From the IMG/VR virus record IMGVR_UViG_3300020472_000011, positions 52,052 through 116,051 of that record: DNA of 64,000 bases, one strand, 5' to 3'. Each line of letters begins with the position of its first letter. Positions within the stretch are counted from its first letter, which is position 1. The notes beneath the pieces are model-generated. The model searched no databases, was not told the DNA's origin, and worked only from the letters and a program-made list of their open reading frames with translations. The translations under genes were made by a program, and so were the position numbers. This DNA comes from a virus. This document shows positions 12,803 to 64,000 of this stretch, piece by piece.

Positions 12803-12820
12803 TATTTATATTTATTTATA
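12803..12820 (-). promoter_or_regulatory. Two tandem T4-type late promoters (TATAAATA) before gp8
   Basis: Read on the minus strand, two exact TATAAATA octamers lie at 12820-12813 and 12810-12803, ten bases apart. They match the T4 late promoter consensus recognised by gp55-type sigma with gp33/gp45. They overlap the stop codon of the gp7 gene and lie about 40-60 bases upstream of the gp8 start, so gp8 and downstream genes could be transcribed independently of the upstream wedge genes. Confidence 0.65.
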
Positions 12821-15800: not shown

Positions 15801-18800
15801 AGTCAGTGCTTGTGTATTATATGGAGATACAGCATTTCCATTCACATCTACTAGAACGAATGATGTCTGCCCTTCGAGATTACCCTTATCAGTAAATCCA
15901 CCAGTAAAGTCTGCATTAAGGAATAGTTGCTTAGCTCTAATCTCTTCAGTAGAGAACGTATCACGTGATACAGAACCTAATCCCTGTTCAATCTTAAGTT
16001 GTTCTGTCTTAATAATATTAACGGTTATCTGCTTCTTAGTGCTAACAACAGTAATCTTATTTTTATTTGGATCCCATAATTGAATCCTACTTGATCTATC
16101 ACTAGATGTGATAGGTGACATACTAGCCTGTGCATCAGATTCAATAAGTACTTCACCAAATAACTGGAATCCAGCAGGGTGAGTAGTTTTCTTTATTAAA
16201 TCTCTCCAGACATCAATTGAAGTCTTTGACTTAACAACATATGAATAGTCCTGATAATAATATGTGTCAGTGATCTTTTGATTAGATGAACTAACAATAC
16301 CCTGATCATCACTATATGATCCAAGATTATCAAAATACGTTTTGATATTTGGTGTAAACTCAGTATATGAAATACTTTCTAGTTTTGCAGTATTCCCTTT
16401 AGCAAGACCCTTAATCTCTAAACCTTCTCTAAAGAGACCAGTTACATCTTTAACAGAAAGTATATTTGATCCATCTCTCCATGCAGTAACTGTTGCTCTA
16501 GCAGTATCTCCTTGAACTATAGTTTCACCAATTCTAAACGTAGTAAAATCAGATACCTTAAGTATATAATTTGATCTAATAGTAGAATCTAATGTAGTAT
16601 CATTATGATAAGCACCACCATTGTTAATGATGCGTATATTTCTAGGAATACCAATATCAACACTAGAAAGATATACTCTAATGTCAGATTCTACAATAGT
16701 TACTTCTGGTGCAGCAGTATAATCAGATCCAGCATCTGTTATAATAATACCAGTAAGTGATCCATTGTTCACTACTGGAGTAAGAACTGCATTACCTTCA
16801 ACAATTACTTTTGGTTTAGAATAATTTGATCCAGCATTGACTATAGTTACACCACTAATAGAACCATTGTAAACCTCAGTGATAGCAGTGGATCTCAGCG
16901 TTTCAGTTGGAGTAACACCAACTACTAAAGGTAATTTCTTATATTCCCCACCAACGTTGATAACATTGATCTTGTCAATAGCACCAACAGAGAACTTAGA
17001 CATAGATTTATATGTGACAGTTCCAGAACCGTCATGTGGTGCTGTCACACCAGTATCATATACAACTGTATCATTTGTTACATATAATGCTTTCTTGATA
17101 CCTTGAAGTGGATCGTCAACCACATTCAAATAACCAGTCTCCCTAGATGTGTCACCATTTCTATCAAAATAATAATACTTGGAATAACTTAATGGTACTT
17201 TTGTACTATAGGTGTTTGTAGCGACTCTAGCACCAAATCCTAATTTAAGATCGACTATATTGTTAGAATCAAGTTTCTCTGGAGTGTTAATGTTATAATT
17301 GATACTAGGAGATATATCAAATTCTCTGTCACTCATTGAAGAGTGAGATACATCAAACTTGTAACTATAGAATTTCTTAATGTTTAGTATAGGATTTCTG
17401 GAGAAATTTATTTGATCTGTGGAAAACTCAAATACTTCAATTGGATCACCCTTTGTACTTACACGTACAAGTCTCTTATCTTCACTTGTATCATAGAATA
17501 CAGTACTCAACGAAACAGGAATAATTGTGGATAATGTGTCATCATAATCCCAAACAACTTGTGCTTTCTGTGTAACAGGATCATATGACTGTATAACTGG
17601 ATCTCCAGCAAGATCACCAATCTTATAACCTTTGTTGAGAGTATATCCTGGAACATCCAAAGTGATTGTAGCACCATTATAGTGATCTACTGCTTTGGTT
17701 CCTTTTTGTCCTCTCTGTACAGTGAATTCTTGATTTGCAACATTCTTCTCTTGTAAGAATAGAATCTCATCATCGATTTTAATGTAATCACCTTTTGTAA
17801 ATCCAATGTTACTAGCAAAATTAACAATAGTGTTAGTTACTCCTAATCCAATATGATCAACTTCAACCTGTAGTGCAGGTGTAGTCAAATCAGTTTTTGC
17901 TAGATCAGCATCACCAACAGTTAATATATCAGATTTCTTATATCCAGTTCCTTTATTCTTAACAGCAACAGAAACAACACTACCTGAAACATCAACCTCG
18001 AAGTCTGCTGTTGCTCCACTACCAGAACCACCTTTCAAAGCAATATTACGATAGTTGTCAGGAGTAGCAAAGTTATCTGTATAATCCTCACCACCATTAA
18101 GAATACTTATTCTTCCTATACCAGAATCATTTAATGTTGTAGATACTGCTGGTGATACCAAAGTGACTTCCTGATATATTCTACTTCTAACATACTGTGT
18201 AGTTGTAGTGACACTATCATCAGGGATAATATCAATTTCAATATCATCACCAATACCAACACCATGACTACCATTAGTTTTTAATAGTGCTACATGGTCA
18301 TTGATAGTGAATATGTTAAGTCCAGCACTCAATGAATTAGTACTGAGAAGTTTAGAACCAACACTATCAATCAAATTACTACTTCTAATGAAATAGTCAT
18401 CAGTAACAACAAAATCACCAGTTGTTACTTTAACCTTAACTGTATTCTTACTTGCAGTACTTTCTAATACTTCTCCAATAGCAATAGTAGTAGCAACACC
18501 ATCTGTGTATGCTAGATTTGCTCCTTTGGTATAAGATGAATTTTCATCAAGTATTAAAGTTATAACTTTAGTATTAGAGTATAATTGATCTGTAGATGTA
18601 AAGACACCATTTACATCTCTAAGAGTAAATGTACTACCACTAAAGACATTACCAACAATCTTACCAGTAGAACCAGTATTTGTTTGTGTTATAGTATCTC
18701 CATCAAAAAGATATGCTGTATTAGATAGATTGATCAATAATCCTTGAGTCTCTTGTGACTCAATAGATTCTACTACCTTTCCTTTTACAGAAGAAACCTC

Positions 18801-45654: not shown

Positions 45655-48600
45655 TTATAGTTCTATTAACCACCATCCTCTTAGTGCTGGAGGAATGGTC
45701 TGTGCAGATGCAGAACCCTCAACGTCAACAGTACCAGCGTAAACTAGACCGAATGATGCGTTGCGTGTCTGAACAACTAATTCACCTGAATCCCATGCTG
45801 TTGATAAGGTTTGGCCAGCACCTGAACCAATCCTCGAACCACTTGTATCACCTTGAATAGCTACCGCTACATTATTTGCTTTCTTGGCTCGTAATATCAA
45901 ACTTGTATTATATGTTAGGTTACCACTAAGTTCAATGAATCTAATCATATCACCTGTCTGTGCATTATCTGGTAGGTATACAACCATGTTACTTCCAGAT
46001 GAAGCATTAACCATATAGTTTTGGTTAACCTGAAGTGGGTTGTCTTGCTGTTGACCAATACCAGTTGAAGGATCAAAGGCAACATAAGTATGTCTTCTAC
46101 CACCACCAGCAGTCCAGTATTTCTCAATACCGAATGAATCAATAGCGTTGTTCTGATAGATCTTGAAGTCTTTTGGACCAACAGTACCACCAGTACCAGC
46201 ACCACCTAAGTTATCTATATGGAATATAGGATCAATTGCTGATTCAACAGATAATACTTTACCAGCCTGATAGAAGGTTTCACCCATCAAGACGTTACCT
46301 TCTCTGTTGGTAACTCTGAATGAAGTCTCAGTTGAACAGACTCCATGCATCTGACAGTTATCATAGTAGATCTTAAGATCACCGTAGAATGCAGCAGCAC
46401 CCTTAAGTGTAAGACCAGCAGTATCTGTCTTAGGATCTTCTAGTGATCCATCACCTGAGTGACCATCATCGTTAGCGATGGACATGACCAGAGTCTTACC
46501 ATCAGAACCATACATTCTAACAGCACCACTGATAATCTCAAGATCCTGATTGATAGTAGTAGATCCACCACCAAATAGTTTGACAGGTGTAGTACCAGTT
46601 ACATTAGGTTCTCTAATCTGCTTAGGCATCTTGACTGCATAGAATGCATCAAGTGTTCCATCAACAGAATCAGGTAAGAAGAATTCGTTTCCTATTCTTA
46701 CAAGAGTTACATAATCAAGTTTAGGAGCAATCAGATCAGCATCAGCAAGTGAGATTTCAAGTCTAATATCACTATTATTTGGTGATCTAGCCTTGAGATC
46801 TGTTGCTCTGTCTGCCTGTGTTGCATCCATGTCATGTAGGAGAGTTGTAGTCCTATCATACTTGTCTAACTTAACAACGTTAGCACCGACAGAGAATGCT
46901 TGAGCACTCGTGCCTTCCATTCCACGACCACCATTAGTATACTCAGCATTAGATGCTGTTGGTAGTAACAACTCACCACCTGTACCTGTGTAAGGATCAT
47001 CAGTAAGTTGAATGATTTCAATAGCAGAAGTAGTAAAGATAGCAACCAAATCACCCTTAGTGAATGATGTTAGGTTACCTTGAATTTCAATGTTAGATGT
47101 TGCAGTTACAACGTTATCAGCAGTTGTTGTTAAAGGACCACCAGAGATAACAGACATTGGATTATGTCTGTATACATGGACTTCATCAACACCCTTAGTG
47201 TATGCAGCAGGTGATGTACCATACTGTTCAGCAAGCATGAAGATTGTACCATGATGGTTACCGACAGTTGTGTCACCTGTACAAGTGTCAACCTCGAAGG
47301 TTGTAATGTCAGAACCATTTGTTATAGTTAACTTCTTATTGGTTGTTGCATTAACATATGGTGTTGTGCAAGTACCGTTAAGGTTGAATGTACCGTTAAT
47401 TGTGGTAGTTCCACCAGCACCAGCAGTTATATTACCAGTTGTAGAATCAACTTCAAAGACTGTCTCTTCTTGTGCTGTGTCACAACCATTCTTAATGGTT
47501 AGTTTCTTAGCAACCTGAGATAGGAGAGTCTTGACCTTAAACATCTCACCTTGATCAAAGATGCCATTAGCAGGGCTAGTAGTATCTTCACGATCAATAA
47601 TTACATAATCACCAAGTGCGATGTTACCACCGAACTGTGCTAGGTATACATTATCCTCAGCACCTGTAGCATCTATAGTTGTAGTAGTCCAAGTAGCATT
47701 ATACTGTACTGTACACTTGTAGATAGCAGTAGTATCTGGATGATCAGATCTAGTAGAGGTGTATGTACCAAATGGTAGTCTTTCAACTACAATCCAGTAA
47801 GGTGCAACGTTAATTCTTGGAAGAGAAATAACTTTAACAAATTCTGGATGCTTAGTACCACCTGAATCATCAGTATCAATGAGTAGTATATCTTGCTCTG
47901 TAATATACTGAGCACCATTACTATCGAACGGACGATTCTTAAGTGGTAAGTAATACTGATCACCACTCAAACCTGTTAGAGTTAAAGGTTCAACAGTTCC
48001 AGCAATCTGTGTAATTGGATTCTGGAATACAGATCCACCCCAATCACCAGTACCAGCTGTATCAACTGCGTTGTAGTTCTCATCAGTGTTAGAGAGTCTC
48101 TTGACTTCAATCAAATCAACATTACTGTTGAATATATTGTTACCAAGATCTCCACTAGCATGAGCGAATGCAGTAGATCCAGTTTGTGATCTGTATGCTG
48201 TGAATGAGTAAGATGCAAATCCACCACAGAGTGTGATATCAGAGTTAAATCTAGCAGCAGAATCAACGACTAGGTTGTTTCTAATTGTAGTCTTACCACC
48301 TTTACCAGCGATTGTGATCTCAGAAGCATTAGTAGCAAAGTCAAGTTTAGATGTAGCAGAGTTACCAGCAAAGAACTCAACAGTTCCAGCAGTAGATGTC
48401 AACTTAACAGTGTCAAGTAGTCCTCTAACTGTACCTAACTGGAAGTCTCCCTTAGTCTTGAATGACTTAGTACCTATAAGTGTATATGATAATGATTCGT
48501 TATTCTCATAAGCACCACCTATCTGTACCTTAGAAATATTGGTAGACATTGTAGGTGTAAACCCAATGTCAATATTACTATGGAATGAGAAGTTACCTAT

Positions 48601-51600
48601 CTTGATAAACTGATCAGATGGAGTTGCATCTGCAATCTTAATAGTAGTACCAAGTGGTGCAATCTCTACTTCACCAGTGAACGGAGTTCCACCAGCATTA
48701 GGGAAGAATTGAACCTTACCTGTAGTAATAGATGTTCTAATCTGTGCAGTATTGGCTCCACCACCACCATTGATTTCGATATCTTCTTCGAACCTAGCAT
48801 CACCAGTGAACCTAGACTCACCATCAACAACTAATGCTCTATCTAATTCAGCATCAGTTACATTAACACCAACACGTCCACCGTTAGCGGTAGAAACTCT
48901 GAAGGTTGACTCATCTGTTGGTGAGGAAGAATCTCCACCAACCATGAATGCATCAGTACGATCTTGATATGTTCTAGTAGCATCAGTTGCATGTGATGCA
49001 TAATCAGTGATCTTCTTACCACTAATGAATGCAGTACCAACAACATCAAGGTTTGCACGTGGGTTTGTCTTAGCATCAACGAAGTTTTGTTTGTAAGATT
49101 CTTTATCAGATCTACCAACTGTGTTAATACCAAATTTGTAATCACCAATAGCATCAGTCTCTGTTCTAATTGCTTCAGCACCAATAACACCCCACTCTTT
49201 CCAGTTGGAATTGGAGTATTCAAGTGTAATATTAGCATTAGCTGCAACTTCATCAGACCACATTCTTGGGTTCTGATTGTTAACAGTATTCTTAGTTGCA
49301 CCAATAGCAAACTGTAATGTATTAGCAGCAGGATTAAATCCATTGGATATAACTTGCCATGTACCATTGAAGTCACTATCAGTGAATCCACTGAATCTAA
49401 GTTCAGAAGATGATGTGATACCAAGTTGCTGGTTTGTTAATGTAGCCCATGTAATTGTAATAACGTTAGTGTTATTAAATGCAAGGGATTCAGGAACAGC
49501 ATTACCAATTGTAGTGTAGTAGTTTGAATAGATCCAACCAAGTGATCCAGACTTACCAATACTTCCACCCTTAAGGAGCATGTCACCAGAATCAGGAGCA
49601 CCAGCATTACCATAAGAAACAATCTGACTTGCATTAAATGCACCAGTTTGATCAGGAGTAATATTAGAAGGTGTAGAACCTGTGATATGTGTTAAGAACT
49701 TGTATGCTTGACCATCTCTGCGACTGTTGAACTGGAAAATTGCTGCGGAAATTTTATTCCTAGCAATGACAACATCACCACCAGTTTCGACATTTCTGAC
49801 GAATGCTGATCTATCAAGAGAACCATCATCAATAGCAGGATCAACGAAGGAAGAAATTACCAACGCAGGGTTGTTCCTAACAGTTCCAAGAACATTAATC
49901 AGAACTGGTGAGTTAAATGTACTTCTCTTATCCTGAGCCTCACCACCATTAACAGTGATGTACTCATTAAATGTAACAGGAGTATCAAACGTTGTAACTA
50001 GATTACCTAGTGTCTCGTCATCATCATCAGAATCTTGTAATGTTGCAGACTCAAGGAATACTTCTTCACCAGTGATAGCATCAATCTTACGGTTACCAAT
50101 GTATAGGTCACCATTAGAGTTAAGACCAGTGTAGAATACTAAACCACCATTCTGCTTCTTAGACTGTGCATAGAAGTCTTGTATCTCTGTGAGTACAACC
50201 TCTTGACGTTGAGGTAGACCAGTTGAGTAGTTACCTGGACCAAAACCAAGATATTCAAACGTGTGGTTACCAGCTCTTGCGATAGATGGTCTTCGAAGTT
50301 CAACATAGTATCGTTGATCTGCTACGACTGTACTATCACCAGAGATAGGAATTAATCTATCTTCAGATCCAGAAGCAGCGTTACCCTTCTGTGCTTTGAT
50401 TCTATTATCAATAGAAGATGATACTTGTGTATAAGTATTGTCTCCGAATGCATTGTTCTTAACTAGATCAATGACACTCTCTTGAGTTAGTGAACCCTTG
50501 AAGTCATTAACTCTTACAAGACCATGAACATAGTTATCAGCAGCAGAATATGTCTGAGGTGGATCAACTAATGTTGCATCCAACTGCTGATACCAGAGAG
50601 GATCGTTCTTATAGTTTAATGGATATAGTGAGGAGATAGGCTGAGAGAACTTAAAGTTCCTGAAGTTGCCTAAATTACCAGCACCTTGAGGTAGTGGTGA
50701 AATGTTACCACGAACAGCAGTTAGATAATAGATACCATCTTGCTGACCATAGATACGTTTCTGAATCTCTTGTGTATTGAAGACATAGAATGTGTCATCA
50801 ATCTGACCAACATCTTCTACTGACTCAACATAGTATTGGATACTTGCATCGTCTTCAATAATATCACCTGGTGTGATAGTATAAACACCAGCACCATTCT
50901 GTCTGTAATAGAATTCAGGATATTCTTTCTTAATAAGATCCTTAAGTACCAATGACTTACCCATGTCAGCATCAGCAAGTAGATCAGCGAATGCTGTACC
51001 CTGACTGAACCTTGTGTTGTCAATAGCATCATAGTCAATCTTACCAACAACATCCTTAAGGATCATGTGCCATGTAGTAGTACCAGGTACATTCATGATG
51101 GCATGTAGATAACCATAACCACTAGAATTACCAGCCCACTCGACCTTGTTACCTTCTACAGATTGTGTCTTGTTAGCAGTGAATGTTCCACCTTGAGGTG
51201 CAGTAATCTTAATAGTATTAAACTTAGTGTTAAGTAATGCAGGATTAGTAACACCATGTTCAAACACAGTTAGTTCTAAGTAGTCAGTTAATCCACCAGT
51301 CTGAACATATCTACCAGACTGAATAGTCATAGAGATATAGTTCTGTGTTGTAATAACTTTCTTAAACTGTGTATTACCTACGACATCCTTCTTGTATGGA
51401 TCGTATGCAATCTCATCATTAAGACTATTAGAAATGAACTCTTGCTTAGTATATCCAATGTACTCATTAGATTGTATTGGGTTAGAGAAACGTGCCTTAG
51501 TTGTACCACCAGAGACAGGCTTAAGACTTATCTTCTGAGGTACTATTCTTCTAGTTTCATCAGTCCTTGTCTTGATAGTGAATCCGTTAAGTGGATCACG

Positions 51601-54600
51601 AACAGATTGTAAATACTGAGGTATAACATAACGTAAACGATATAGTCTATCGTTAGCAGGTCTCTCATCCTTAATTCTTTCGAACCAAGAATCATTTGTC
51701 TTATCAATACCATCAGCATACTCTCTAAGTCTCTTGATGATTTGATCTGTACCGTTGCTATTCTCAACCTGTAAGTACCACTTACCATATATTACTGGGT
51801 TAGTATTAGGATTAACAAACGTTGGATCAAATCTCATTGGAGACTGACGCTTGTTAGCAAATACGTTAAAGTCGTAAGTACCTGGTTGATATGTTATTGG
51901 GTTAACACCTTGCTCTGCATCACTCTTAGTCTTATGGATAGTAAAGACTTTCTCTGTTTGATACCTAGCAAAGAAGTACTTGTTACCTAACAGTCTACCT
52001 TGACTATCTGCAACAGTATTATCACTAGCATATGCTGCACCAACTAGAGGTAGAGCACCACCTTCTCTTTTTCTAAAGAATACTGTGTGTCCAGTAATGT
52101 TAGAGAATGGAACATCAAAGATGTGTGGAACATCTGTACGGATGTTTGTATTACTTACACCATCAAGTACACAACCATATTGATGTAGATCATAGTTATC
52201 ATCAAGAACAAACTGATAGATATCAATCTCTATGTCTGGATGTATATCTTCTACTTCAGCAGAGTGTAGGTAGATACCAGCAGCAGCATTCTCTTTGCTG
52301 CTTGCAAGCATAATCTTAGTCTGATCACTTCCATTGAATACAGCATTAGCAGAATAATTTTCTGGTTGTGTATTTCTTGCTGGAGCAATTACATAGTACT
52401 CTTGGTTGGTAGCAAATCCATTAGGAAGTCTAACGAAACGCTTATCAACATCAACATAAGAATTGGTTTGTGTATCATAACGTGGACGTGGAACCAATCT
52501 AATTGGTGTGCCTGTCTCAAGATCATGTGGATTAGCACCAACTCCTTGTGTCAAGGTAAAGACTGTTGCTCTAGATGATAATGATGTAGTTAACTGTGAT
52601 GGTTGACTACGTGGTACACTACCCAATCCAGTTTGGATAATTGTGCTAATATTAGCGAAGTACTGACGAATAGCATTTGCTTGATCAACACACTGAGGAT
52701 ACGTTGTATTCTGTGTGATAGTATTGTCAACTGTTCTAGTAAGAGTTGTGTATACTGCATCAGCAAACTCAAAGTGTAAGTAAGAGTTAGTGCTAGTTGC
52801 GTTAGCATTAATAGAAGGACCAAACTCTAGACCAAGAGGAACAGGGTTCCTTTCAACACTGTCAAGATAAGAAGCAGAATTGATAGTTCCAGTGATTATC
52901 TGGTAGAGAGTTGTGATTGTAGATGCAACCTGTTGACAAGCACCATTAGAAATGGTTCTTGTTACACCATCAAGAGATGTTGGTGTTTCAACTGTATCAA
53001 TAACAATCTTGAATAGTGAATTAAGTGTTGATCTTACATCTTCACATGATCCAACTGAAGGAGTTCTTGTAACTCCACCAATTACAATCTTCTCTGATGC
53101 ACTGACGAAGGTATGAGTTGAGATATCAGATGATATACCAACATTAACCGTGATTGTGGTAGCAGTAGTGCCAGTAATGGTAGGATCATTGTTTGAAGCT
53201 GGGTCGGTTGAACGTGGATAAGTATGATTTGTTGCGTTGTTATCTCTCTCACATGTAAATGTTAGTGAGTTATCAACGATGTGTACACTAGTTCCATTTG
53301 TATAACTATGAGCACCAATATCAAGTGTTAACGAACCAGTTGTAGGATCATAAGTTGATGTGGTTACTGTATGGTTTTTACCAGATAATGTACTAGGATC
53401 TGTAATAGCATCAGTTACAATCTTAGTAAGAACACCAACAGCAGATCTCATGTCCTCACAAGGACCAACAGAATCTGTACGTGTTATACCTTGTAGTGAT
53501 GTTGAATCAGATATTGTGCCAGTTAAGATAGCAACTAAAGTATCAATAGCACTCAATACAACATTACAATCTCCATTAATAACACCATTAGTAATGGTAA
53601 GATCTCTTGTCTGAGTTAATGATGTGTGACCACCAACAGTAACTTCTACGTTAGTAGCAATCTCTTTGATGATGTCACGTACTGCATTGAATGCAAAGAT
53701 AGTTTCACTTTCAGATCCAGCAGCATGAGCACCAGCAACATAAAGGTTAGCAGCATCCCATACTCTATGGTTACCACCATAACCTGTGTTATGTGCAACA
53801 ACTTTAACTACATCTTTAAGATCATCTAAACAATCAGTAGAACTGTAACCAGCTTGCCATGAATATGAAGGGAACTGAGCAATCATTCTACCCAGTGCTA
53901 CCTCTGCTGCAAACTCAACGTTATCCAAGATTAGATTCTTAGCATCAGCATGTCTGCTACTTACATGAGGAGCAACCTCACCAGTAATAGTAGTGTCCCT
54001 AACCTGTGTACGTCCATGAGAACCAAGTGTTACAATGTTCTCATTCCTAGCGATTTGAATCATCAAATCACGTGCATGATTAAGTGCTTGGGTAGTTTGT
54101 GCTTCTTCTCCAGCAACCTCTTGAACCATACCCTGTACATAGAGATCGGTCATCTCCCAAACTCTATCGTTACCACCATATGCTAGGTTGTATGAAACTT
54201 CTTCAACGAAGTCTACGATGTCATCTTTACAATCCTGTTGGTTACCTGTTGGAGGAACAAATCCAGGATGTTGTACCAACATTCTCTCGTATGCTTCATC
54301 AGCAATGAGTAGTTTGTTAGCAACAACTAAGTTACGAGCATCAGCAAATTTATTTGATGGTGCAGGGTTAACTTCATTGAATGTAATACTCTTATCAAAT
54401 ACCTGTGGAAGACCATGATGTCCAGTAACAAGAATCTTCTGGTTTCTAAGTGCTTGAGCAGCCATTTCACGTGCTTGCTCAAATACATAATTGGTTTCAT
54501 CTTCTTCACCAGCTACATGAGCACCAGTCTTGTATGAGTATGCTGCATCCCATGTCTTATCATTACCACCATAAGCAATGTTATCAGCAACTGCTTCAAG

Positions 54601-57600
54601 TAGATCAACAACATCATCAATACAATCTTGATTGTGATACTGTTGATTACCAGCAACTGTGAATACTTTGTGTATGGAATTGTTTACTGCACTAACAAAC
54701 TTATGGAAGTAAGAACCACCAGTTTGAATAGCACCAGCAGACGCACTCTTGAATTGGTGTGGATACTGATTAGATAGAGTAGCAACACCTACATTAACTG
54801 TAAATGTTCCAGTTTCTTTCTGAACATTACCAGCAACTGATCTTACAAATGTATGATTAGCAGTAGGATAATGTCTGATTGAATTAGCAGTAGCACTTAC
54901 AAATGTATGTGGTGATGCTGGTTCGAAATGAACAGCATTAGCAACAGAATTTACAAATGTATGAGTATATCTCTGGTTGTAGATGATAGCATTAGCAGTT
55001 GCATTAACAAAGGTATGATCATACTGATCATTAGCAGCAGCTGCACCAACATTAACTGTAATTGTTGTAGTTGTAGCATCCTTAATTTCTATATCACTAT
55101 TGTATGCTGGATCAGTAACTCTAGGATATGAGTGGTTAGTTGCATTAGCATCTTTAGCACACTGGAATGTTAAAGAATCAGGTGCTATCTTAATCTTCTC
55201 ACCATTTTGTAGATCATGTACTCCAATAGTAAGAGTCATATCACCAGTGATTGCATTATAAGATGCAGCAGTAGGAGTATAGTTAGTTAATTGTGAAGCA
55301 CCAATATTAACTGTAACAGTTCCATTCTGTCTATGTAATCCATTAGCAACAGCAGATACAAATGAATGTACTGACTTATCCTGAGAAATACCTACATTAA
55401 CTTCAAATGTATTAGTAGTCTTATCAGCAATCTTCAACCACCTTGAACTTACAGGGTCAAATCCTGCCCGTGGATATTTTTTCTGACTTACGTTACCATC
55501 AAGGTCACATGTCAGTGTTAAAGATTCATCATCTAACTTAATATAATCACCATTAGAGAATCCATGATTGTTAACTGTTAGTTTAAGAACACCTGTCTCA
55601 GGAGTATATTCTGCACCACTAACACTATGCATAGATGCACCAACACTATTAACAGTGATTGATTTTTCACCTGCATATGGATCTATTCCAGGACGTGGGT
55701 AACTATGGTTAGAAGTATGATTATCCTTAGAACATGTAAAGGTTAGTGAATTATCCTTAAGAATAATACCTGCACCTTCACGAAGACCATGCTGACCTAT
55801 TGTAAGAATAAGATCACCAGTGGTTGAGTTATAGTCAGCAGCACTAGGAGTCCATGTCTGATTATCTCCAGCATTACCAACATTAACTGTAATTGTATTT
55901 GCAGTCCTAGCAATAATATCTACAGATCTTCCAGATACTCTATCACTAGCAGTCTGACGTGTGATTCCATCAGCAACACCACTTATAAATGCATGTGTGT
56001 CTGTGTTAGTAGAAGGTAAAGCTTCAAGACATTGGAACTCAAATGAATCAACACCTGTCTCTGTTACCTTAATCCATGTACCACTTACAGGATCACTAGG
56101 ACGTGGATATGATTTCTCAGCAGCAGTACCTGTTGCTCCATTAAATCCACAACTGAATGTTAGAGCACCATCAGCGATCTTAACAAAGTCACCAGTTTTT
56201 AATCCATGATTAGCAGTTGTTGTAATAGAAACAATACCTGTTGTAGGATTATATGTTGTGCCAGTAGTTGCAGTAAGACCTTTAGATGCTGGACGTGGAT
56301 AAAGTTTATTGGACTGCTCTTCATCCATCTGACACTTAAATGTCAGTGAGTTATCATCAATAGTAATACCATCACCAACTGCAAGAGAATGACTACCAAT
56401 TGTTAGAGTAAGATCTCCAGTTGCAGGATCATAATTTGCTCCTGTTGGTGTAAATACATTCTCGGTTATGTCAGCAGTTACAGCACCATAATCAGCAGAA
56501 ACAAATGTATGACCATAGTTACCACCACTGGTTATAGCGTCAGCAGTTGCAGAGACAAATGCATGAACAGTAGTGTTAGAAGACTTACCAACATCAAGAG
56601 TAATTGTTGTTGCTGTTACAGCTGTAATATCTACAGGTGAATCATAAGACTTATCTTTCTTCTGAGTAATACCACCAGCGACAGCAGATACAAATGTATG
56701 ATCTGTAGTGTTGGTTGAAGGTGCAGAATCTAATACTTGGATATCAAATGTATTTGTCTGTGTATTAGAAATCTTAACCCACTTGTTACTGATAGGATCA
56801 GATGCTCTTGGGTATGTGTGGTTAGTAGCATGACTATCTTGAGCACATGTAAATGTTAGAGAATCATCTGCTAACTTAACCCAATCACCATCACGCATTC
56901 CGTGACCAGCAACAGTAACTGTAATGATACCAGTATCAGGATCATAGGCAGCCATGGTTGCTGTATGACTTTCAATTGTTGTTCTAGGATATGCATGGTT
57001 AGTAGCATTATTGTCCTGACCACATGTGAATGTGACTCCAGCATCAGCAATCTTAACAGACTCACCAACAGTTAGGTTATGAGAACCAATGGTCAATGTC
57101 ATTAAACCATTTGCAGGATCAAAAGATGCATCCGTTGGAGTGTGACTGACTAAAGGTGAAGCACCAACATTAACTGTAACTGTTGTAGCATCAGCAGCAG
57201 TAACTACTGTACCTGTTGAGTAGATAGGATCACTAGAACGAGGATAAGTCTTAATGTCAGAAGTACCACCCATTGCACAACGGAACTTCAATGAATCCTG
57301 TGCTATAGTAATATTCTTACCAACAGGAATGTTATGATTAGGAATAGTCAATACTAACTGACCAGTTGCAGCTGTGTATGTGGCAGCAGTAGGTGTATAT
57401 GTTTGAGAAGCACCAGCCTGACCAACATTAACTTTGAAAGTATTTGTTGTTGCATCAGAAATTACTAACCACTTACCATTGCTAGGATCTTTAAGTCTTG
57501 GATATGCATGCTCAGTTGCATGGTTATCCATATCACATGTAAATGTGAGTGATCCATCAGCAATTTTAATTCTATCACCATTGGTGAATCCATGATTAGC

Positions 57601-60600
57601 AACAGTAAGAACTAGATCACCAGTGGAAGGATTGTATGAAGCATCTGTTGAACTATGATAAGAAGAACCAACTGACTTAACAGGTAGAGATGATGTTCCA
57701 GCAGGATCAGTAGGTCTAGGATAAGCATGGTCTGTAGCATTATTATCTGCATTACATGAGAACTTGATAGAGTTACCAATAATTCTAACGTCTTGACCTG
57801 GTTCCAAATCATGTGATCCAACTGTGACTGTCATGTCACCAGTAGAAGGATTGTAAGTTGCATCACTTACATCAAGATTACCTTGACCTGTAGTACCAAT
57901 ATTAACAGTAAACTGATTAGTAGATGCTGCTAGAACTGGTAGATCTTCCTGATATGCAGGGTCACTAATACGTGGATATGCATGTTGACTGTTGTGACCA
58001 TCCATGTCACAAGTAAAGTTCAATGCACCATAGTCAATTCTTACACGATCATTAGCCTTCTTAATACCATTTGGATTAGAAGATATGAATGTGTGTGCAT
58101 AGTTTCCACCAGTAGTAATTGCATTAGGTATAGCAGATACAAATTGATGTGCAGTAGTGTTAGAAGATGTACCAACATCTAAAGTTACTGTTCCATCGTA
58201 TCTTGTTAATCCATTAGCAACAGCACTTACAAATATATGTGCGTAGTTACCACCAGAAATTAAAGCACCACTAGTAGCAGATACAAATTGATGTAGATAG
58301 TTACCACCTGTCTTAAGAGCACCTGCATCAGCAGACTTAAATGTATGAACATATCCACCACCAGACTTAACAGCACCTGCTAGTGCAGATACGAAAGTAT
58401 GTACGTCTGTAGTCTTGCTTGAAGGTCCAACATTAACTGTAATAGTATCAGCAGTAACACCAGTGATTTCTATTGCCTGATCATATGATCTGTCAACCTT
58501 AGAAGTAATACCGTTGTTGCTTCCAGTTATGAATGTATGAGCAGTAACGTTAGTAGAAGGAATGACATCCAATACTTGTACATCAAATGTAGTTCCAGTT
58601 ACATTAGAAACCTTCAACCACTTACTACTTACTGGATCAGTTACACGAGGATATGTGTGGTTGGTGCTGTTATTATCCTCCATACATGTGAAGGTAAATG
58701 CACCAGTAGCAAACTGAACATAGTCACCATTCTTGATGTTATGAGCAGCAGTTGTTACACTCAATATACCTGTAGTTGGATCATATGTTGTACCAGCAGC
58801 AGCTGTGTGTGTTTCAGTAGCAGATCTAGGATAAGACTTAGCACTCTGACTACCAGTAGAGAATCCAACGAATACTGTCATTGTTGTACCAGTGACAGAA
58901 TCTAAACCTAGTGTTTCATTACGGAATGGATCACCAGCACGAGGATATGTGTGTTGTGTAGCGTTGTTATCAGCATCACAAGTGAATGTTAATGCATCCT
59001 GATCAAATGTGATTGTACTATTTGCTTTCTTAAGACCACTAGCAGTTGCAGAAACAAATGTATGTGCATAGTTTCCACCAGATGTAACACAGTCAGCAGT
59101 TGCAGAAACAAATAAGTGTGCTGTAACATTAGTAGATGGGATTGTACTTAGTACCTGAACACTAATTGTTGTAGCAGTTACATCAGTAATAGCAAATGAT
59201 TTATCAGAGAATGGATCAGTTGTACGAGGATAAGTATGTGTTGTTTGATGATTATCTTCAGCACAAGTGAATGTTAGAGAGTTATCTGCAATCTTAACAG
59301 CAGTACCAACAGTCAAACTATGAGCACCAATGGTAAGTTCCATTATACCAGTGGTAGGATTATAATTTGCACCTGTAGGTGTATGCTGTATTAATGGAGA
59401 TGAACCAACATCAACTGAGAATGAATCTGTAGTAACATTAGAGATTTGTAACCACTTACCGAATGTAGGATCAGACTTACGTGGGTATGTCTTAGTAGAA
59501 ACATTGCCATCCATAGCACAGTTAAGTGATATGGAACCTTCTGCAAATTTAACTCTATCACCATTACTAAATCCATGATTAGCAATGGTAACAAGCATAG
59601 TACCAGTTGCAGCATTATATGTTGCATCTGTTACTGTATGTGTAGAAGCAGCATTCAAAGCATGTGCTCCAACTTCAAGAACCAATTCACCTGTGATAGG
59701 ATCGTATGTTGTTCCAGAAGCTGCTGTCAATGCTGTGCTACCATCAGCAGTAACACCACCAGCAGCACCAGTGATAAAGGTATGTGGAACATTACCATAA
59801 GTACAACTAAATGTTACACCAGCATCATCAATCTTGATTGACTCACCAACAGTTAGACTGTGGTTTCCAATCTTCAAGGTCATCTCACCTGTTGCAGGGT
59901 TGTATGAACCATCATCAACATTGTGACTTACTATTGGAGATTGACCAACATTAATAGTAATAGTTGTAGCTGACGCTGCTGTAATTTCAATAGAAGTATC
60001 ATTTACAGGGTCAGTAACACGAGGATAAGACTTGACACTATAGTTTCCATCCATCTCACAAGTAAACTTGAGAGAATTAGGATCAACCTTAACACTTGTG
60101 CCAGCAGTTAAACTGTGACTACCTATAGTTAATTCCATCAATCCTGTGTTAGGATCATAGGTAGCATTAGTTGGTGTAAACTCTACAATAGGAGACTTAC
60201 CAACATTAACTGTAATGTCACCACCTCTCTTAGAGATAGCATAGTTAGTTGCTCTCTTAAATGTATGAGCAGACTGTGGTAGATGCTTAACTGAATTTGT
60301 TAATGCAGATACGAATGTATGTGCTGACTGAGGCTTATATTCTACAGCATCAGTAAGAGCAGATACAAATGTGTGAGCATATCTATTAGCAGGATCAGCA
60401 TCGAAACCAACATTAATTGTTAGTGTTCCGTCTTGCTTTAAGATACCATTAGCAGAAGCAGATACAAATGTGTGTACTGAATTATCAGTAGAAGAACCAA
60501 CGTTAATGGTTAATGTATCAGTGCTTGCTGATAGGATAGGAACCCATCTGTTGCTGAGTGAATCAAAGTTGGTACGTGGATATGTCTTCTGACTTACGTT

Positions 60601-63600
60601 ACCATCAAGTTCACATGTTAATGTAATAGAATTATCTGCTACCTGAATGTAATCTCCTGGTGAGAATCCATGACTAGGAACAGTAACAACCATAACACCA
60701 GTAGAAGGTGTGTATGCAACATTAGTTGCTGTATGTTGCGAAGATCCAACTGCTGTAATAGCAATTGACTTACCAGCATAAGGGTCAGTACCAGGTCTAG
60801 GATATGAATGCTGAGTAGCACCACCATCTTTATCACAAGTAAATGTTAATGAGTTATCTTTTAATGTAATATCAGTACCAACACGCAATCCATGCTGACC
60901 AACAGTAAGAACCATCTCACCATTGTTCTGATTGTATGTTGCACCAGTAGGAGTAAAGTCCTTATTAGTACCAGCAGTACCTACATTAATTGTAAACTTA
61001 CCTGTATCAACTGATGTAATTGGAAGAGATCTTCCAGAAGCTTTATCTAAGTTTGCACGTGGATATGACTGAGCAACTTGGTTGTTGTCCATTGTGCAAG
61101 TGAATGATACAGCACCGTCATCCATGACGATTCCATCACCAACAGATAGATTATGAGCACCAACAGTAAGTTCTAAGTCACCAGTTGCAGGGTCATATGC
61201 AGCACCAGTTGGTGTAAACTCTACGTTAGATCCAGCATCTGCAATCTGAACTTTAAATGAATTCTGTGCTACATCATAGACAGATAACCAATCACCAGAA
61301 TAAGGATCAGTTGCACGTGGATACTTATGCTCGGAAGCATTACTATCCATGCCACATGTGAATGTTAGAGAGTTGTTGGCAATCTTAATGAGTTCTCCAT
61401 TTGTCAATCCATGATTAGCAACAGTGAACTCAAGTACACCTGTAGATGGGTTGTAGTTAGCATTAGAAATATCATAGTTACCACCAACACCTATAACTTC
61501 TAACCCAGTATTATACGCAGGGTCAGTTGTACGAGGATATGTGTGGTTAGAACTATTTCCATCCATACCACATGTGAATGTTAATGCATTATCATCAAAT
61601 CTAATATTCTCACCAACATCAATGTCATGGTTTCCATCAACACTAACTGTTAACTCACCACTTGCAGGATCATAAAGTGCGTTAGTAAGATCATATGTTA
61701 CCGCACCAGTAGTTCCAACATGTGCTTCAAAAGTATTGTTGGTTTTGTTTGTAATAGTAACCCACTTACCACTGATAGGGTCAGACTTACGTGGATATGA
61801 ATGCTCAGTAGCATTGTTATCCATTGCACAAGTAAAGACTAATGCATTGTCATCAATTCTTATCTTATCACCATTTTCAAATCCATGATTAGTAAGGGTG
61901 AATTCCATAGTACCCTTATCAGGGTTGTATCCAGCACCAGTAACTGTGTGCTTGGAACCATCTGCTACAATCTTAACAGAACTTTGATATGCTGGATCAG
62001 TTGAACGTGGATAAACATGTTGTGTGCCATAGTTATCTTGAGCACATGTAAATGTAAATGCTCCGTCTTCAACTCTTACATTCTGCCCTTCACCTAACTG
62101 GTGACCTGGAATAGTTGCAGTCAACAATCCAGTAGCAGGAACATATGCAGCAGCAGTTACATCATGTCCAATTAATAGAGACTTACCTACATCAATACTG
62201 AATGTATTTGTATCTGCCTCAGCAACTTCGACCCACTTATTACTAATAGGATCAGATGATCTAGGATATACATGAGTAGAAGCATCACCATCCATTGAAC
62301 ATGTCAATGTCAATGATTCATCTTCAATCTTAACCTTACTACCAGCAGCTAGACCATGACCATTAGATGTAATAGTCAACCAACCAGTTTCAGGATTATA
62401 ACTTGCATCTGAAGCTGTGATAGCACTAGCAGCAGTTAATCCATGACTCTGAATATCAAGAGTCAAATCACCTGTTGCTGGATCATACTCAGCATCAGTT
62501 GGTGTATATTCAGCAGTAGAAGAACGAACCAACATTCTCTCTACAGATTCAGCAGCAATCAAATTCTTGTTAGCAAGTATTAGATTACGTGCGTCACCAT
62601 TTCTGTCATTAACCACTTCAGGTGGTTCATAAGTGACAGTATTATCATATGTTTGAGTTAGACCATGACTACCAAAGATGAATGACTTCTCATTACGCAT
62701 GATCTGCACAGACATATCTCTGGCATATTCAATCGCACGAATGGTCTCTTCTTTCTTCTGTGAAATATACTGAACTGCACCACTATCATAGTGATATGCA
62801 GCATCCCATACTTCATCGTTACCACCATAAGCAGTATTCTCAGCAATTGCTTCAACGATGTCAACTAAGTCATCCCTACAATCCTGTGGACCGTATCCTG
62901 TTGGTGAAGTATAAGATGGGAAATCCAATACCATCCTATCAAATGCTTCAGCAGCAATGAATAGTTTGTTTGAAAGTAATAAGTTTCTAGCGTCACCATT
63001 ACGATCAGAGATTACCTTCTTACTAGAGAATGTTGCTTTCTGTCCAAGTTCAATCTCTGTTGATGAGATAACACTCTTAACATATGTGTTATCAGGAATA
63101 ACTGGAGATGCAGGACGTGTAGCACCAGCATTAAGTTTGTTGTCTGTAAACTGAGTAGGATCATAGTCAGCAACAGTCATACCTTGTACTAGACCACTGG
63201 TATCACCGACATCAACAATAGCAGTTCCAGCAGTAGTTTCTGCTCCAGTACGTAAGTATGTGAAGTTACGTATGGATGCAATAGCAAGATCTCTAGCGTA
63301 ATCGTAACCTTCTAGAGTTTCAGTAAGTTCTGATGTAATGTATGATAAATTGTTACCAACATAGTATGATTCACCAGCTTGGATAGTATTAATGTTACCA
63401 CCAAGTCTTAAATCCTGAATAGTAGCATCAAGTAGGTATCCAATGTCACGACGACACTTAACAATATCAATACCTTCTCTATCTAAGAGGTATGGATACT
63501 TATTAGTAATATATCCGTATGCCTCGTAAGCAATAAACTCTTTGTTTGCTTCAATAAGGTCAGCAGCATCTAGATCCTTATTGTTAATTGTAATACCAGT

Positions 63601-64000
63601 AGGATTAAGAATAGTTGCAGTAGCATTAAACTTCTTAAATCCATTAGGAGATAATGTTGACTGGAAAATATTACTACTTCCAGCAGATCTAGGAATTAAT
63701 TTTACATATAATTTTTCATCTGACCTAGCACCTATACGGAATCCATCAATAGATGCAGCAACACGTGTCTCTGGATTAAATGCTTCATCGTCTCCAAGAT
63801 AGATCTTAGTCTGGTCTGATGCACTATTAAGATTTTTTGTTGCTGGAATATCAATTGTATAATAAGCATTCTTCTTGATATTTCCAGTAGTTGTATCAAC
63901 AACCTGTGGAGGAACAATGTCAGTAATATATCCACCTTTATCTTGTGCAAAGGCAAAACCTTTATGACCGATAGCATGTAGTGATGTATTACCAAAGTTA
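45655..64000 (-). CDS. Giant virion structural protein (at least 6,114 codons; N-terminus beyond window)
   Basis: One frame is open from the right edge to the TAA at 45655. The ATG at 63180 is not a true start: reading upstream gives 273 more codons without a stop or Met, ending DVGDTSGLVQG directly before MTVADYDPTQF, and a conserved module spans the area. Layout: helical modules with DARNL...NK...RM...DC.DD.V...AYGGND (at least four, plus a related copy upstream); a long beta-repeat array (about 26 YPR motifs; 54655-62520) placed inside the second module; short R-T-x-S-x-G-x-C repeats (52850-53570) with one more beta repeat; then a long beta-rich region similar to cyanophage fibre proteins, ending LRGWWLIEL. 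Probably a very long fibre or tail-associated filament; no enzyme motif seen. Confidence 0.85.
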   Translation of the reverse strand, partial: NFGNTSLHAIGHKGFAFAQDKGGYITDIVPPQVVDTTTGNIKKNAYYTIDIPATKNLNSASDQTKIYLGDDEAFNPETRVAASIDGFRIGARSDEKLYVKLIPRSAGSSNIFQSTLSPNGFKKFNATATILNPTGITINNKDLDAADLIEANKEFIAYEAYGYITNKYPYLLDREGIDIVKCRRDIGYLLDATIQDLRLGGNINTIQAGESYYVGNNLSYITSELTETLEGYDYARDLAIASIRNFTYLRTGAETTAGTAIVDVGDTSGLVQGMTVADYDPTQFTDNKLNAGATRPASPVIPDNTYVKSVISSTEIELGQKATFSSKKVISDRNGDARNLLLSNKLFIAAEAFDRMVLDFPSYTSPTGYGPQDCRDDLVDIVEAIAENTAYGGNDEVWDAAYHYDSGAVQYISQKKEETIRAIEYARDMSVQIMRNEKSFIFGSHGLTQTYDNTVTYEPPEVVNDRNGDARNLILANKNLIAAESVERMLVRSSTAEYTPTDAEYDPATGDLTLDIQSHGLTAASAITASDASYNPETGWLTITSNGHGLAAGSKVKIEDESLTLTCSMDGDASTHVYPRSSDPISNKWVEVAEADTNTFSIDVGKSLLIGHDVTAAAYVPATGLLTATIPGHQLGEGQNVRVEDGAFTFTCAQDNYGTQHVYPRSTDPAYQSSVKIVADGSKHTVTGAGYNPDKGTMEFTLTNHGFENGDKIRIDDNALVFTCAMDNNATEHSYPRKSDPISGKWVTITNKTNNTFEAHVGTTGAVTYDLTNALYDPASGELTVSVDGNHDIDVGENIRFDDNALTFTCGMDGNSSNHTYPRTTDPAYNTGLEVIGVGGNYDISNANYNPSTGVLEFTVANHGLTNGELIKIANNSLTFTCGMDSNASEHKYPRATDPYSGDWLSVYDVAQNSFKVQIADAGSNVEFTPTGAAYDPATGDLELTVGAHNLSVGDGIVMDDGAVSFTCTMDNNQVAQSYPRANLDKASGRSLPITSVDTGKFTINVGTAGTNKDFTPTGATYNQNNGEMVLTVGQHGLRVGTDITLKDNSLTFTCDKDGGATQHSYPRPGTDPYAGKSIAITAVGSSQHTATNVAYTPSTGVMVVTVPSHGFSPGDYIQVADNSITLTCELDGNVSQKTYPRTNFDSLSNRWVPILSASTDTLTINVGSSTDNSVHTFVSASANGILKQDGTLTINVGFDADPANRYAHTFVSALTDAVEYKPQSAHTFVSALTNSVKHLPQSAHTFKRATNYAISKRGGDITVNVGKSPIVEFTPTNATYDPNTGLMELTIGSHSLTAGTSVKVDPNSLKFTCEMDGNYSVKSYPRVTDPVNDTSIEITAASATTITINVGQSPIVSHNVDDGSYNPATGEMTLKIGNHSLTVGESIKIDDAGVTFSCTYGNVPHTFITGAAGGVTADGSTALTAASGTTYDPITGELVLEVGAHALNAASTHTVTDATYNAATGTMLVTIANHGFSNGDRVKFAEGSISLNCAMDGNVSTKTYPRKSDPTFGKWLQISNVTTDSFSVDVGSSPLIQHTPTGANYNPTTGIMELTIGAHSLTVGTAVKIADNSLTFTCAEDNHQTTHTYPRTTDPFSDKSFAITDVTATTISVQVLSTIPSTNVTAHLFVSATADCVTSGGNYAHTFVSATASGLKKANSTITFDQDALTFTCDADNNATQHTYPRAGDPFRNETLGLDSVTGTTMTVFVGFSTGSQSAKSYPRSATETHTAAAGTTYDPTTGILSVTTAAHNIKNGDYVQFATGAFTFTCMEDNNSTNHTYPRVTDPVSSKWLKVSNVTGTTFDVQVLDVIPSTNVTAHTFITGSNNGITSKVDRSYDQAIEITGVTADTITVNVGPSSKTTDVHTFVSALAGAVKSGGGYVHTFKSADAGALKTGGNYLHQFVSATSGALISGGNYAHIFVSAVANGLTRYDGTVTLDVGTSSNTTAHQFVSAIPNAITTGGNYAHTFISSNPNGIKKANDRVRIDYGALNFTCDMDGHNSQHAYPRISDPAYQEDLPVLAASTNQFTVNIGTTGQGNLDVSDATYNPSTGDMTVTVGSHDLEPGQDVRIIGNSIKFSCNADNNATDHAYPRPTDPAGTSSLPVKSVGSSYHSSTDASYNPSTGDLVLTVANHGFTNGDRIKIADGSLTFTCDMDNHATEHAYPRLKDPSNGKWLVISDATTNTFKVNVGQAGASQTYTPTAATYTAATGQLVLTIPNHNIPVGKNITIAQDSLKFRCAMGGTSDIKTYPRSSDPIYSTGTVVTAADATTVTVNVGASPLVSHTPTDASFDPANGLMTLTIGSHNLTVGESVKIADAGVTFTCGQDNNATNHAYPRTTIESHTATMAAYDPDTGIITVTVAGHGMRDGDWVKLADDSLTFTCAQDSHATNHTYPRASDPISNKWVKISNTQTNTFDIQVLDSAPSTNTTDHTFVSAVAGGITQKKDKSYDSPVDITAVTATTITLDVGKSSNTTVHAFVSATADAITSGGNYGHTFVSADYGAVTADITENVFTPTGANYDPATGDLTLTIGSHSLAVGDGITIDDNSLTFKCQMDEEQSNKLYPRPASKGLTATTGTTYNPTTGIVSITTTANHGLKTGDFVKIADGALTFSCGFNGATGTAAEKSYPRPSDPVSGTWIKVTETGVDSFEFQCLEALPSTNTDTHAFISGVADGITRQTASDRVSGRSVDIIARTANTITVNVGNAGDNQTWTPSAADYNSTTGDLILTIGQHGLREGAGIILKDNSLTFTCSKDNHTSNHSYPRPGIDPYAGEKSITVNSVGASMHSVSGAEYTPETGVLKLTVNNHGFSNGDYIKLDDESLTLTCDLDGNVSQKKYPRAGFDPVSSRWLKIADKTTNTFEVNVGISQDKSVHSFVSAVANGLHRQNGTVTVNIGASQLTNYTPTAASYNAITGDMTLTIGVHDLQNGEKIKIAPDSLTFQCAKDANATNHSYPRVTDPAYNSDIEIKDATTTTITVNVGAAAANDQYDHTFVNATANAIIYNQRYTHTFVNSVANAVHFEPASPHTFVSATANSIRHYPTANHTFVRSVAGNVQKETGTFTVNVGVATLSNQYPHQFKSASAGAIQTGGSYFHKFVSAVNNSIHKVFTVAGNQQYHNQDCIDDVVDLLEAVADNIAYGGNDKTWDAAYSYKTGAHVAGEEDETNYVFEQAREMAAQALRNQKILVTGHHGLPQVFDKSITFNEVNPAPSNKFADARNLVVANKLLIADEAYERMLVQHPGFVPPTGNQQDCKDDIVDFVEEVSYNLAYGGNDRVWEMTDLYVQGMVQEVAGEEAQTTQALNHARDLMIQIARNENIVTLGSHGRTQVRDTTITGEVAPHVSSRHADAKNLILDNVEFAAEVALGRMIAQFPSYSWQAGYSSTDCLDDLKDVVKVVAHNTGYGGNHRVWDAANLYVAGAHAAGSESETIFAFNAVRDIIKEIATNVEVTVGGHTSLTQTRDLTITNGVINGDCNVVLSAIDTLVAILTGTISDSTSLQGITRTDSVGPCEDMRSAVGVLTKIVTDAITDPSTLSGKNHTVTTSTYDPTTGSLTLDIGAHSYTNGTSVHIVDNSLTFTCERDNNATNHTYPRSTDPASNNDPTITGTTATTITVNVGISSDISTHTFVSASEKIVIGGVTRTPSVGSCEDVRSTLNSLFKIVIDTVETPTSLDGVTRTISNGACQQVASTITTLYQIITGTINSASYLDSVERNPVPLGLEFGPSINANATSTNSYLHFEFADAVYTTLTRTVDNTITQNTTYPQCVDQANAIRQYFANISTIIQTGLGSVPRSQPSQLTTSLSSRATVFTLTQGVGANPHDLETGTPIRLVPRPRYDTQTNSYVDVDKRFVRLPNGFATNQEYYVIAPARNTQPENYSANAVFNGSDQTKIMLASSKENAAAGIYLHSAEVEDIHPDIEIDIYQFVLDDNYDLHQYGCVLDGVSNTNIRTDVPHIFDVPFSNITGHTVFFRKREGGALPLVGAAYASDNTVADSQGRLLGNKYFFARYQTEKVFTIHKTKSDAEQGVNPITYQPGTYDFNVFANKRQSPMRFDPTFVNPNTNPVIYGKWYLQVENSNGTDQIIKRLREYADGIDKTNDSWFERIKDERPANDRLYRLRYVIPQYLQSVRDPLNGFTIKTRTDETRRIVPQKISLKPVSGGTTKARFSNPIQSNEYIGYTKQEFISNSLNDEIAYDPYKKDVVGNTQFKKVITTQNYISMTIQSGRYVQTGGLTDYLELTVFEHGVTNPALLNTKFNTIKITAPQGGTFTANKTQSVEGNKVEWAGNSSGYGYLHAIMNVPGTTTWHMILKDVVGKIDYDAIDNTRFSQGTAFADLLADADMGKSLVLKDLIKKEYPEFYYRQNGAGVYTITPGDIIEDDASIQYYVESVEDVGQIDDTFYVFNTQEIQKRIYGQQDGIYYLTAVRGNISPLPQGAGNLGNFRNFKFSQPISSLYPLNYKNDPLWYQQLDATLVDPPQTYSAADNYVHGLVRVNDFKGSLTQESVIDLVKNNAFGDNTYTQVSSSIDNRIKAQKGNAASGSEDRLIPISGDSTVVADQRYYVELRRPSIARAGNHTFEYLGFGPGNYSTGLPQRQEVVLTEIQDFYAQSKKQNGGLVFYTGLNSNGDLYIGNRKIDAITGEEVFLESATLQDSDDDDETLGNLVTTFDTPVTFNEYITVNGGEAQDKRSTFNSPVLINVLGTVRNNPALVISSFVDPAIDDGSLDRSAFVRNVETGGDVVIARNKISAAIFQFNSRRDGQAYKFLTHITGSTPSNITPDQTGAFNASQIVSYGNAGAPDSGDMLLKGGSIGKSGSLGWIYSNYYTTIGNAVPESLAFNNTNVITITWATLTNQQLGITSSSELRFSGFTDSDFNGTWQVISNGFNPAANTLQFAIGATKNTVNNQNPRMWSDEVAANANITLEYSNSNWKEWGVIGAEAIRTETDAIGDYKFGINTVGRSDKESYKQNFVDAKTNPRANLDVVGTAFISGKKITDYASHATDATRTYQDRTDAFMVGGDSSSPTDESTFRVSTANGGRVGVNVTDAELDRALVVDGESRFTGDARFEEDIEINGGGGANTAQIRTSITTGKVQFFPNAGGTPFTGEVEIAPLGTTIKIADATPSDQFIKIGNFSFHSNIDIGFTPTMSTNISKVQIGGAYENNESLSYTLIGTKSFKTKGDFQLGTVRGLLDTVKLTSTAGTVEFFAGNSATSKLDFATNASEITIAGKGGKTTIRNNLVVDSAARFNSDITLCGGFASYSFTAYRSQTGSTAFAHASGDLGNNIFNSNVDLIEVKRLSNTDENYNAVDTAGTGDWGGSVFQNPITQIAGTVEPLTLTGLSGDQYYLPLKNRPFDSNGAQYITEQDILLIDTDDSGGTKHPEFVKVISLPRINVAPYWIVVERLPFGTYTSTRSDHPDTTAIYKCTVQYNATWTTTTIDATGAEDNVYLAQFGGNIALGDYVIIDREDTTSPANGIFDQGEMFKVKTLLSQVAKKLTIKNGCDTAQEETVFEVDSTTGNITAGAGGTTTINGTFNLNGTCTTPYVNATTNKKLTITNGSDITTFEVDTCTGDTTVGNHHGTIFMLAEQYGTSPAAYTKGVDEVHVYRHNPMSVISGGPLTTTADNVVTATSNIEIQGNLTSFTKGDLVAIFTTSAIEIIQLTDDPYTGTGGELLLPTASNAEYTNGGRGMEGTSAQAFSVGANVVKLDKYDRTTTLLHDMDATQADRATDLKARSPNNSDIRLEISLADADLIAPKLDYVTLVRIGNEFFLPDSVDGTLDAFYAVKMPKQIREPNVTGTTPVKLFGGGSTTINQDLEIISGAVRMYGSDGKTLVMSIANDDGHSGDGSLEDPKTDTAGLTLKGAAAFYGDLKIYYDNCQMHGVCSTETSFRVTNREGNVLMGETFYQAGKVLSVESAIDPIFHIDNLGGAGTGGTVGPKDFKIYQNNAIDSFGIEKYWTAGGGRRHTYVAFDPSTGIGQQQDNPLQVNQNYMVNASSGSNMVVYLPDNAQTGDMIRFIELSGNLTYNTSLILRAKKANNVAVAIQGDTSGSRIGSGAGQTLSTAWDSGELVVQTRNASFGLVYAGTVDVEGSASAQTIPPALRGWWLIEL
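53095..53375 (-). repeat. Single beta-repeat unit outside the main array
   Basis: Encodes STYDPTTGSLTLDIGAHSYT, SLTFTCERDNNATNHTYPRS and STHTFVSASEK, the same unit as in the main array, but alone between two R-T-x-S-x-G-x-C modules of the giant protein. Confidence 0.75.
54655..62520 (-). repeat. Protein-level tandem repeat array (about 26 units)
   Basis: Units of about 70-110 codons with the pattern YDPxTGxLxLTIGxHxL, then SLTFTCxxDNxATxHxYPR-x-DP, then TITVNVG and often HTFVSA. I counted about 26 YPR motifs and about 26 HxFVSA-like motifs across the giant protein. DNA identity between units is moderate, so the array is not a recent exact duplication. Confidence 0.8.

Follow-up and report, generated by a model that had tools for sequence, protein, structure and literature searches.

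A 2,633-residue array of beta repeats interrupts one helical module of a giant tail protein in a probable cyanophage

In a stretch of 64,000 nucleotides from the IMG/VR virus record IMGVR_UViG_3300020472_000011 (positions 52,052 to 116,051; hereafter the window), a giant tail protein contains a helical module that is interrupted by 2,633 residues of beta repeats. The open reading frame (ORF) for this protein occupies window positions 45655-63999 on the minus strand. The window is the end of the 116,051-base record, and the contig stops at window base 64000, where the 5' end of the ORF is lost; 6,114 residues are present and about 500 N-terminal ones are missing, a close relative on contig G001 having a 6,620-residue frame. 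In our opinion, to which we would attach a probability of roughly 70%, the best explanation is that a T4-like (Kyanoviridae-type) cyanophage encodes here a tail fibre-type protein, in which beta units entered a loop of one module and the resulting array then grew. Most likely, the helical scaffold of this tail protein serves to display inserted beta domains, which the array multiplies.

The modules follow the pattern DARNL...RM...(13-17 residues)...DC.DD...YGGN, which is intact at residues 336, 3220 and 3352 of the window protein and divergent near residues 144-279; DARNL itself occurs at residues 336, 469 and 3220, and as DAKNL at 3352. All of them lie on the minus strand. Module M0 (63163-63570, residues 144-279) carries the phycobiliprotein-like motif KCRRDIGY with a bilin-type Cys at residue 182 (codon 63454-63456), while M1 (62596-62994, residues 336-468, Cys 374) is intact and has a short linker. 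Also intact are M3 (53947-54342, residues 3220-3351, Cys 3257), the best match of the contig to the phycobiliprotein family PF00502, and M4 (53560-53946, residues 3352-3480, Cys 3390). The module between M1 and M3 is split. Its first helix, M2a (62533-62595, residues 469-489), closes with SVERM at residue 489 and is the first helix in natural short-array relatives, too; the remainder, M2b (54343-54633, residues 3123-3219, Cys 3126), reads NQDCIDDVV...AYGGND from residue 3123 and comprises helices 2-4 and a hairpin. The array fills the space between the halves (54634-62532, residues 490-3122), where the linker of the other modules of the protein measures 13-17 residues. A module profile matches residues 469-513 at model positions 1-26 and residues 3105-3219 at positions 34-125, its matches elsewhere in the protein being contiguous. 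Since the two halves match one and the same profile in this way, the split pattern is not due to chance. Between the half-matches there are 26-29 profile matches to a beta unit of about 83 residues (consensus LTVTGATYNPTTGDLTLTIGNHGLKEGDSIKIADNSLTFTCAMDNNATEHSYPRATDPASNKSLEITAVTTNTITVNVG), and the array also holds about 25 matches to an 18-residue HTFVSA-type motif. Thus, the array does lie inside a split second module, as the initial annotation had proposed from the sequence; its limits of 54655-62520 and its estimate of about 2,620 residues were off by no more than 21 bases and 13 residues, respectively.

An assembly artefact was considered and is ruled out by the equal array length in five other metagenomes, together with the diversity of the units. 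Contigs from five other marine metagenomes (L008, L009, L010, L012, L014) show an identical spacing of 2,752 residues between two GGN motifs, and their flanking modules are 89-97% identical to those of the window. Within the array, the beta units share on average 40% and at most 61% amino-acid identity, which makes a collapse of reads unlikely. The ratio of nonsynonymous to synonymous substitution rates (dN/dS) of the array is about 0.26-0.30 when measured against the more distant of these same-spacing relatives.

In relatives at about 65% identity (L041, L045, L048-L054, L058), the orthologous module is contiguous and has a linker such as LIEYPGFAVPGGN; an alignment puts every array within that linker. 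Homologues with the short linker, the very comparison that the initial annotation had suggested, thus exist. Over all fetched loci, 299 distinct modules are intact and 30 are split, and the breaks in all 30 fall at model positions 26-36|26-34, i.e., at a single site. The gaps span 849-2,628 residues in the gene of the window protein and 111-114 residues in a second gene. The clearest pair comes from this second giant protein: L031 and L032 have flanking DNA that is 97% identical on both sides, and they differ at the same site by one unit, L031 having a canonical linker of 27 bp (PAFSVPTGD) and L032 having 363 bp that encode one beta unit (regions compared: L031 9.9-10.4 kb, L032 9.5-10.2 kb, L033 10.0-10.7 kb). 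Between L032 and L033, the insert is 95% alike and the left flank only 82.5%, a contrast suggesting that the insert may move by recombination. Four relatives (L115, L120, L097, L133) carry an additional single beta unit elsewhere in the split M2, in the loop that joins the short helix to the last one (near AHVAG|GEE), and L043 carries three beta units between modules. Taken with the insert that separates L031 from L032, these cases indicate that module loops are recurrent acceptor sites for the beta unit.

Predicted structures agree with an insertion into a loop of one domain. AlphaFold2 was run on natural short-insert versions from relatives, not on the window's own module. In the one-unit module of L032 (224 residues; mean predicted local distance difference test score (pLDDT) 81), helices at 3-13 and 15-29 are followed by a beta domain at 49-135 and by helices at 153-172, 178-187 and 195-213, with low-confidence hinges at 33-40 and 142-149. 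A longer model of M1 and M2 from L059 (1,119 residues), including an array of about 850 residues, gives helices at 2-25, 37-56, 62-70 and 79-100 for M1; for M2, it gives a helix at 146-173, almost solely strands over 177-1011, and helices at 1026-1045, 1051-1060 and 1069-1087. The helix pattern of the split module is therefore that of the intact M1 within the same model. Two outcomes that would have spoken against the original proposal, halves that do not form one domain and halves that belong to different folds, were not seen. Overall, the short-linker orthologues, the length variation at one site, the pair differing by one unit and the four-helix pattern bear out the loop of one domain, and we infer that the halves would pack as one domain in the virion.

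It might be argued that the halves never belonged together, and that recombination set two unrelated helical ends around a beta fibre. They are, after all, separated by 2,633 residues, and no solved structure shows them packed against each other. We consider this highly improbable, because the same sequence occurs uninterrupted in orthologues and paralogues, because L031 and L032 differ by the presence of a single unit, and because the alignment with phycobiliprotein helices B and E runs across the junction (see below); the empty sites likewise disfavour it. A Foldseek search with the single-insert model gave no PDB match below 0.001, with phycobiliproteins among the weak matches. Against viral models, the same program returned cyanophage tail proteins; the column counts suggest that many of them match the beta unit alone, and so they do not show a packing of the halves.

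A relationship to phycobiliproteins emerges from profile comparisons of the modules. The module profile gave 35 matches in the PDB up to an E-value of 10, every one of them a phycobiliprotein or a close relative (best 0.0012); for a profile of M0-type modules, the best value was 7.6e-5, and all 60 among the matches listed belong to the phycobiliprotein family. PF00502 was the sole recurring Pfam family among the module members, being matched by 12 of 19 (best 8.1e-6) and by 11 of 19 (best 1.9e-6) of them. When 102 modules were aligned with phycoerythrins from cyanobacterial genomes, HHalign returned a probability of 96.1% (E 3.4e-9; 31% identity), compared to 0.5-0.6% for reversed-sequence controls. 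The aligned part consists of helix B, the next loop and helix E, so homology extends from the helix B to the helix E region, and the array breaks the module in the B-E loop just ahead of the bilin Cys. Among 425 distinct module rows, gathered with a profile whose seeds had been chosen for their GGN and DA motifs, independently of Cys, 98% have a Cys in the column of the bilin Cys and 99% an Asp at Cys+3; each of the five modules in the window protein has both. We took conservation from these rows since the M0 alignment was selected by the motif [KR]C.RD, which makes its invariant Cys circular. Judged by profile comparison, then, the modules are remote homologues of phycobiliproteins, with which they have in common the aligned helices, the bilin-site Cys, the Asp+3, the GG turn and a conserved Asn in helix B. 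Unlike phycobiliproteins, which have 160-184 residues, the modules have about 130 and stand in tandem in a virion protein, and the N-terminal and C-terminal helices of phycobiliproteins have no match in them. Instead of the complete globin-like fold, which includes helices X, Y, A and H, AlphaFold2 gives four main helices. The modules would thus be tandem, shortened and remote relatives of the phycobiliprotein globin-like fold, their helices corresponding to B, E, F' and F/G, where the assignment of the last two is probable rather than certain.

A comparable insertion is known from ApcE (LCM), the phycobilisome linker, whose PB-loop (81-136) adds 55 residues, the canonical Cys position being 153 (PMC5436742). 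There too, a phycobiliprotein-like domain is expanded just ahead of the canonical Cys position; however, the ApcE insertion consists of 55 partly disordered residues, whereas the window module holds 2,633 residues of beta units. A search with the module profile found modules in all 11 cyanophage genomes examined, often in several giant structural proteins. None of the open-access papers searched describes phycobiliprotein-like modules in phage tails, and this nature of the tail modules appears to be undescribed there.

Several observations weigh against the scenario that we prefer. The long-array model of L059 is weak in its helical parts (pLDDT about 40-70), and its predicted template modelling score (pTM) is 0.45. 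The phycobiliprotein alignment is limited to 58 columns. The modules of the window stay below the Pfam cut-off, the best being M3 (E 2.9e-5; 20.5 bits against 22.2), while the relatives G002 (24.2) and S-WAM2 (26.6) exceed it; this is why we speak of remote homologues and not of members of PF00502. No Foldseek match lends a binding function to the beta units. Finally, in a tree of modules M3-M4, array rows and empty rows lie on opposite sides of one branch (100/97; 96/84 in an earlier tree, where L043, L115 and L120 were mistyped or contaminated by beta sequence), but the tree is unrooted, and the rows labelled 'other' are mostly truncated contigs. Such a topology is therefore compatible with an ancestral array that was later lost.

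According to this last alternative, the shorter and empty versions would be deletions, and it is also true that the array ends are alike in the shortest and the 2,633-residue versions. We find it unlikely nonetheless: the empty orthologues and nearly all paralogous modules share the canonical linker (P.F..PTGN), whose precise regain by deletion is hard to envisage; hundreds of paralogous modules without an insert argue in the same direction. We therefore infer growth rather than loss. Beta units would have been inserted into loops of helical modules; in the B-E loop of module 2, a series of units would have become established once in the lineage and then acquired further units until it reached 2,633 residues, with both ends conserved and the surrounding module still intact. 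The natural series of empty, one-unit, about 10-unit, about 15-unit and 26-29-unit versions is an unusually clear picture of a virion domain that was opened at one loop and filled with repeats, and it gives a way to ask how giant phage fibres grow.

It is tempting to suppose that the modules still bind bilin. In all seven isolates that have the giant gene, and in the three IMG/VR contigs checked that reach its start, genes for CpeT-type lyases are found 0.3-2.2 kb upstream of it. On the G003 contig (35454-37381), the order beside the giant gene is CpeT, bilin reductase, CpeT; CpeT-type lyase genes are likewise found directly upstream at 51408-51836 on G001 and at 106168-108579 on G002. The almost invariant Cys and Asp described above, the motif KCxRDIGY retained by M0-type modules and published work for which the function of phage bilin genes is an unsettled matter (PMC3037559, PMC2984593) would all fit a pigmented tail, built of captured phycobiliprotein modules that are loaded by the phage bilin reductase and T-type lyase, with the array hanging from a loop beside the pigment pocket. 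Such a proposal is compatible with the insertion and differs from our scenario in function. We rate it as quite unlikely, and as a primary explanation, attachment of bilin by phage CpeT was set aside, because T-type lyases act on Cys-155 and not on a Cys-84-type site (PMC2327270). Moreover, S-BM3 has a Cys-bearing module but no CpeT match, the modules are devoid of several phycobiliprotein helices, and the synteny may be mere inherited gene order. If true, a pigmented tail would explain the bilin genes in phages, even in those of Prochlorococcus hosts without normal phycobilisomes, and the bilin genes beside the giant gene make it possible to test directly what cyanophages use such genes for, a long-open question.

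As to the array itself, the Pfam search of the units gave no Ig or FnIII match and recognised no binding domain. Foldseek of the array model returned generic beta-bead proteins alone, including FnIII and phage-fibre bead proteins, with TM-scores of at most 0.16 among the matches listed. The Pfam family E1_FCCH was rejected as an identity for the units: its 3.7e-7 is a summed value, no single stretch is significant, and the fold lends no support. Ig-like and FnIII domains are known as insertions in phage structural proteins and are likewise beta domains that decorate the virion; in contrast to them, the units of the array have no significant sequence or specific fold match, sit in the loop of a helical domain and are amplified to 26-29. 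The initial annotation had the array grown within a surface loop and projecting as a side filament. The placement in a loop is supported; the filament is not borne out. With both ends of the array fixed in one loop, the chain must return, which excludes a simple free-tipped filament except for a chain that is folded back on itself; the beads would more plausibly form a closed loop or a doubled-back hairpin. The array would accordingly resemble a flexible bead chain that leaves and returns through one loop, multiplying the beta-domain contact surfaces on the tail while the fibre backbone stays unchanged. An adhesive role would suit such an arrangement. Alternatively, the array might be non-adhesive, a spacer or shield that sets the reach of the fibre or protects the module. 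The lack of a recognised binding domain, a composition rich in Thr, Ala, Ser and Gly, and an array length that is constant in close relatives all speak for this idea, yet the units are diverse and under purifying selection, beyond the needs of a passive spacer, and we hold it to be possible but the less probable of the two roles.

The assignment to a tail is based on PHROG 4527 ('short tail fiber protein' family), whose profile matches the C-terminal part of the window protein (residues 229-2999 of that part) with an E-value of about 0 and the N-terminal part (its residues 1-323) at 2e-134, the array itself being uncovered. By profile, most of the window protein therefore belongs to the same family as the proteins of S-PM2, Syn1, S-WAM2 and others, in which the giant gene adjoins gp12 and is followed by short-tail-fibre and tail-collar genes. 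Nine isolates of this family that we examined have no long array at the site where the window protein is split, and PHROG 4527 proteins measure about 3,700-4,800 residues, compared to about 6,600 for the close relative of the window version. The presence of psbA in G001, the nearest relative, points to a cyanobacterial host; a cyanobacterium is thus the most likely host of the virus as well.

Finally, we would like to mention some minor observations. A further single beta unit lies downstream of M4 (53128-53373, minus strand, residues 3543-3624), amid other helical segments, and another giant ORF of the window (12816-21377) contains one copy of a divergent module of the same phycobiliprotein-like kind (15168-15578, minus strand). 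Within 54652-63999, PHROG labels disagree for the same modules and units, ranging over 'head and packaging', 'baseplate wedge subunit' and 'tail fiber'. In S-PM2 (L005, NC_006820.1, 168556-173383), the record places a run of tRNAs inside the open giant coding sequence (CDS); ARAGORN finds no tRNAs there and locates them upstream of the CDS instead, so the annotation looks shifted.

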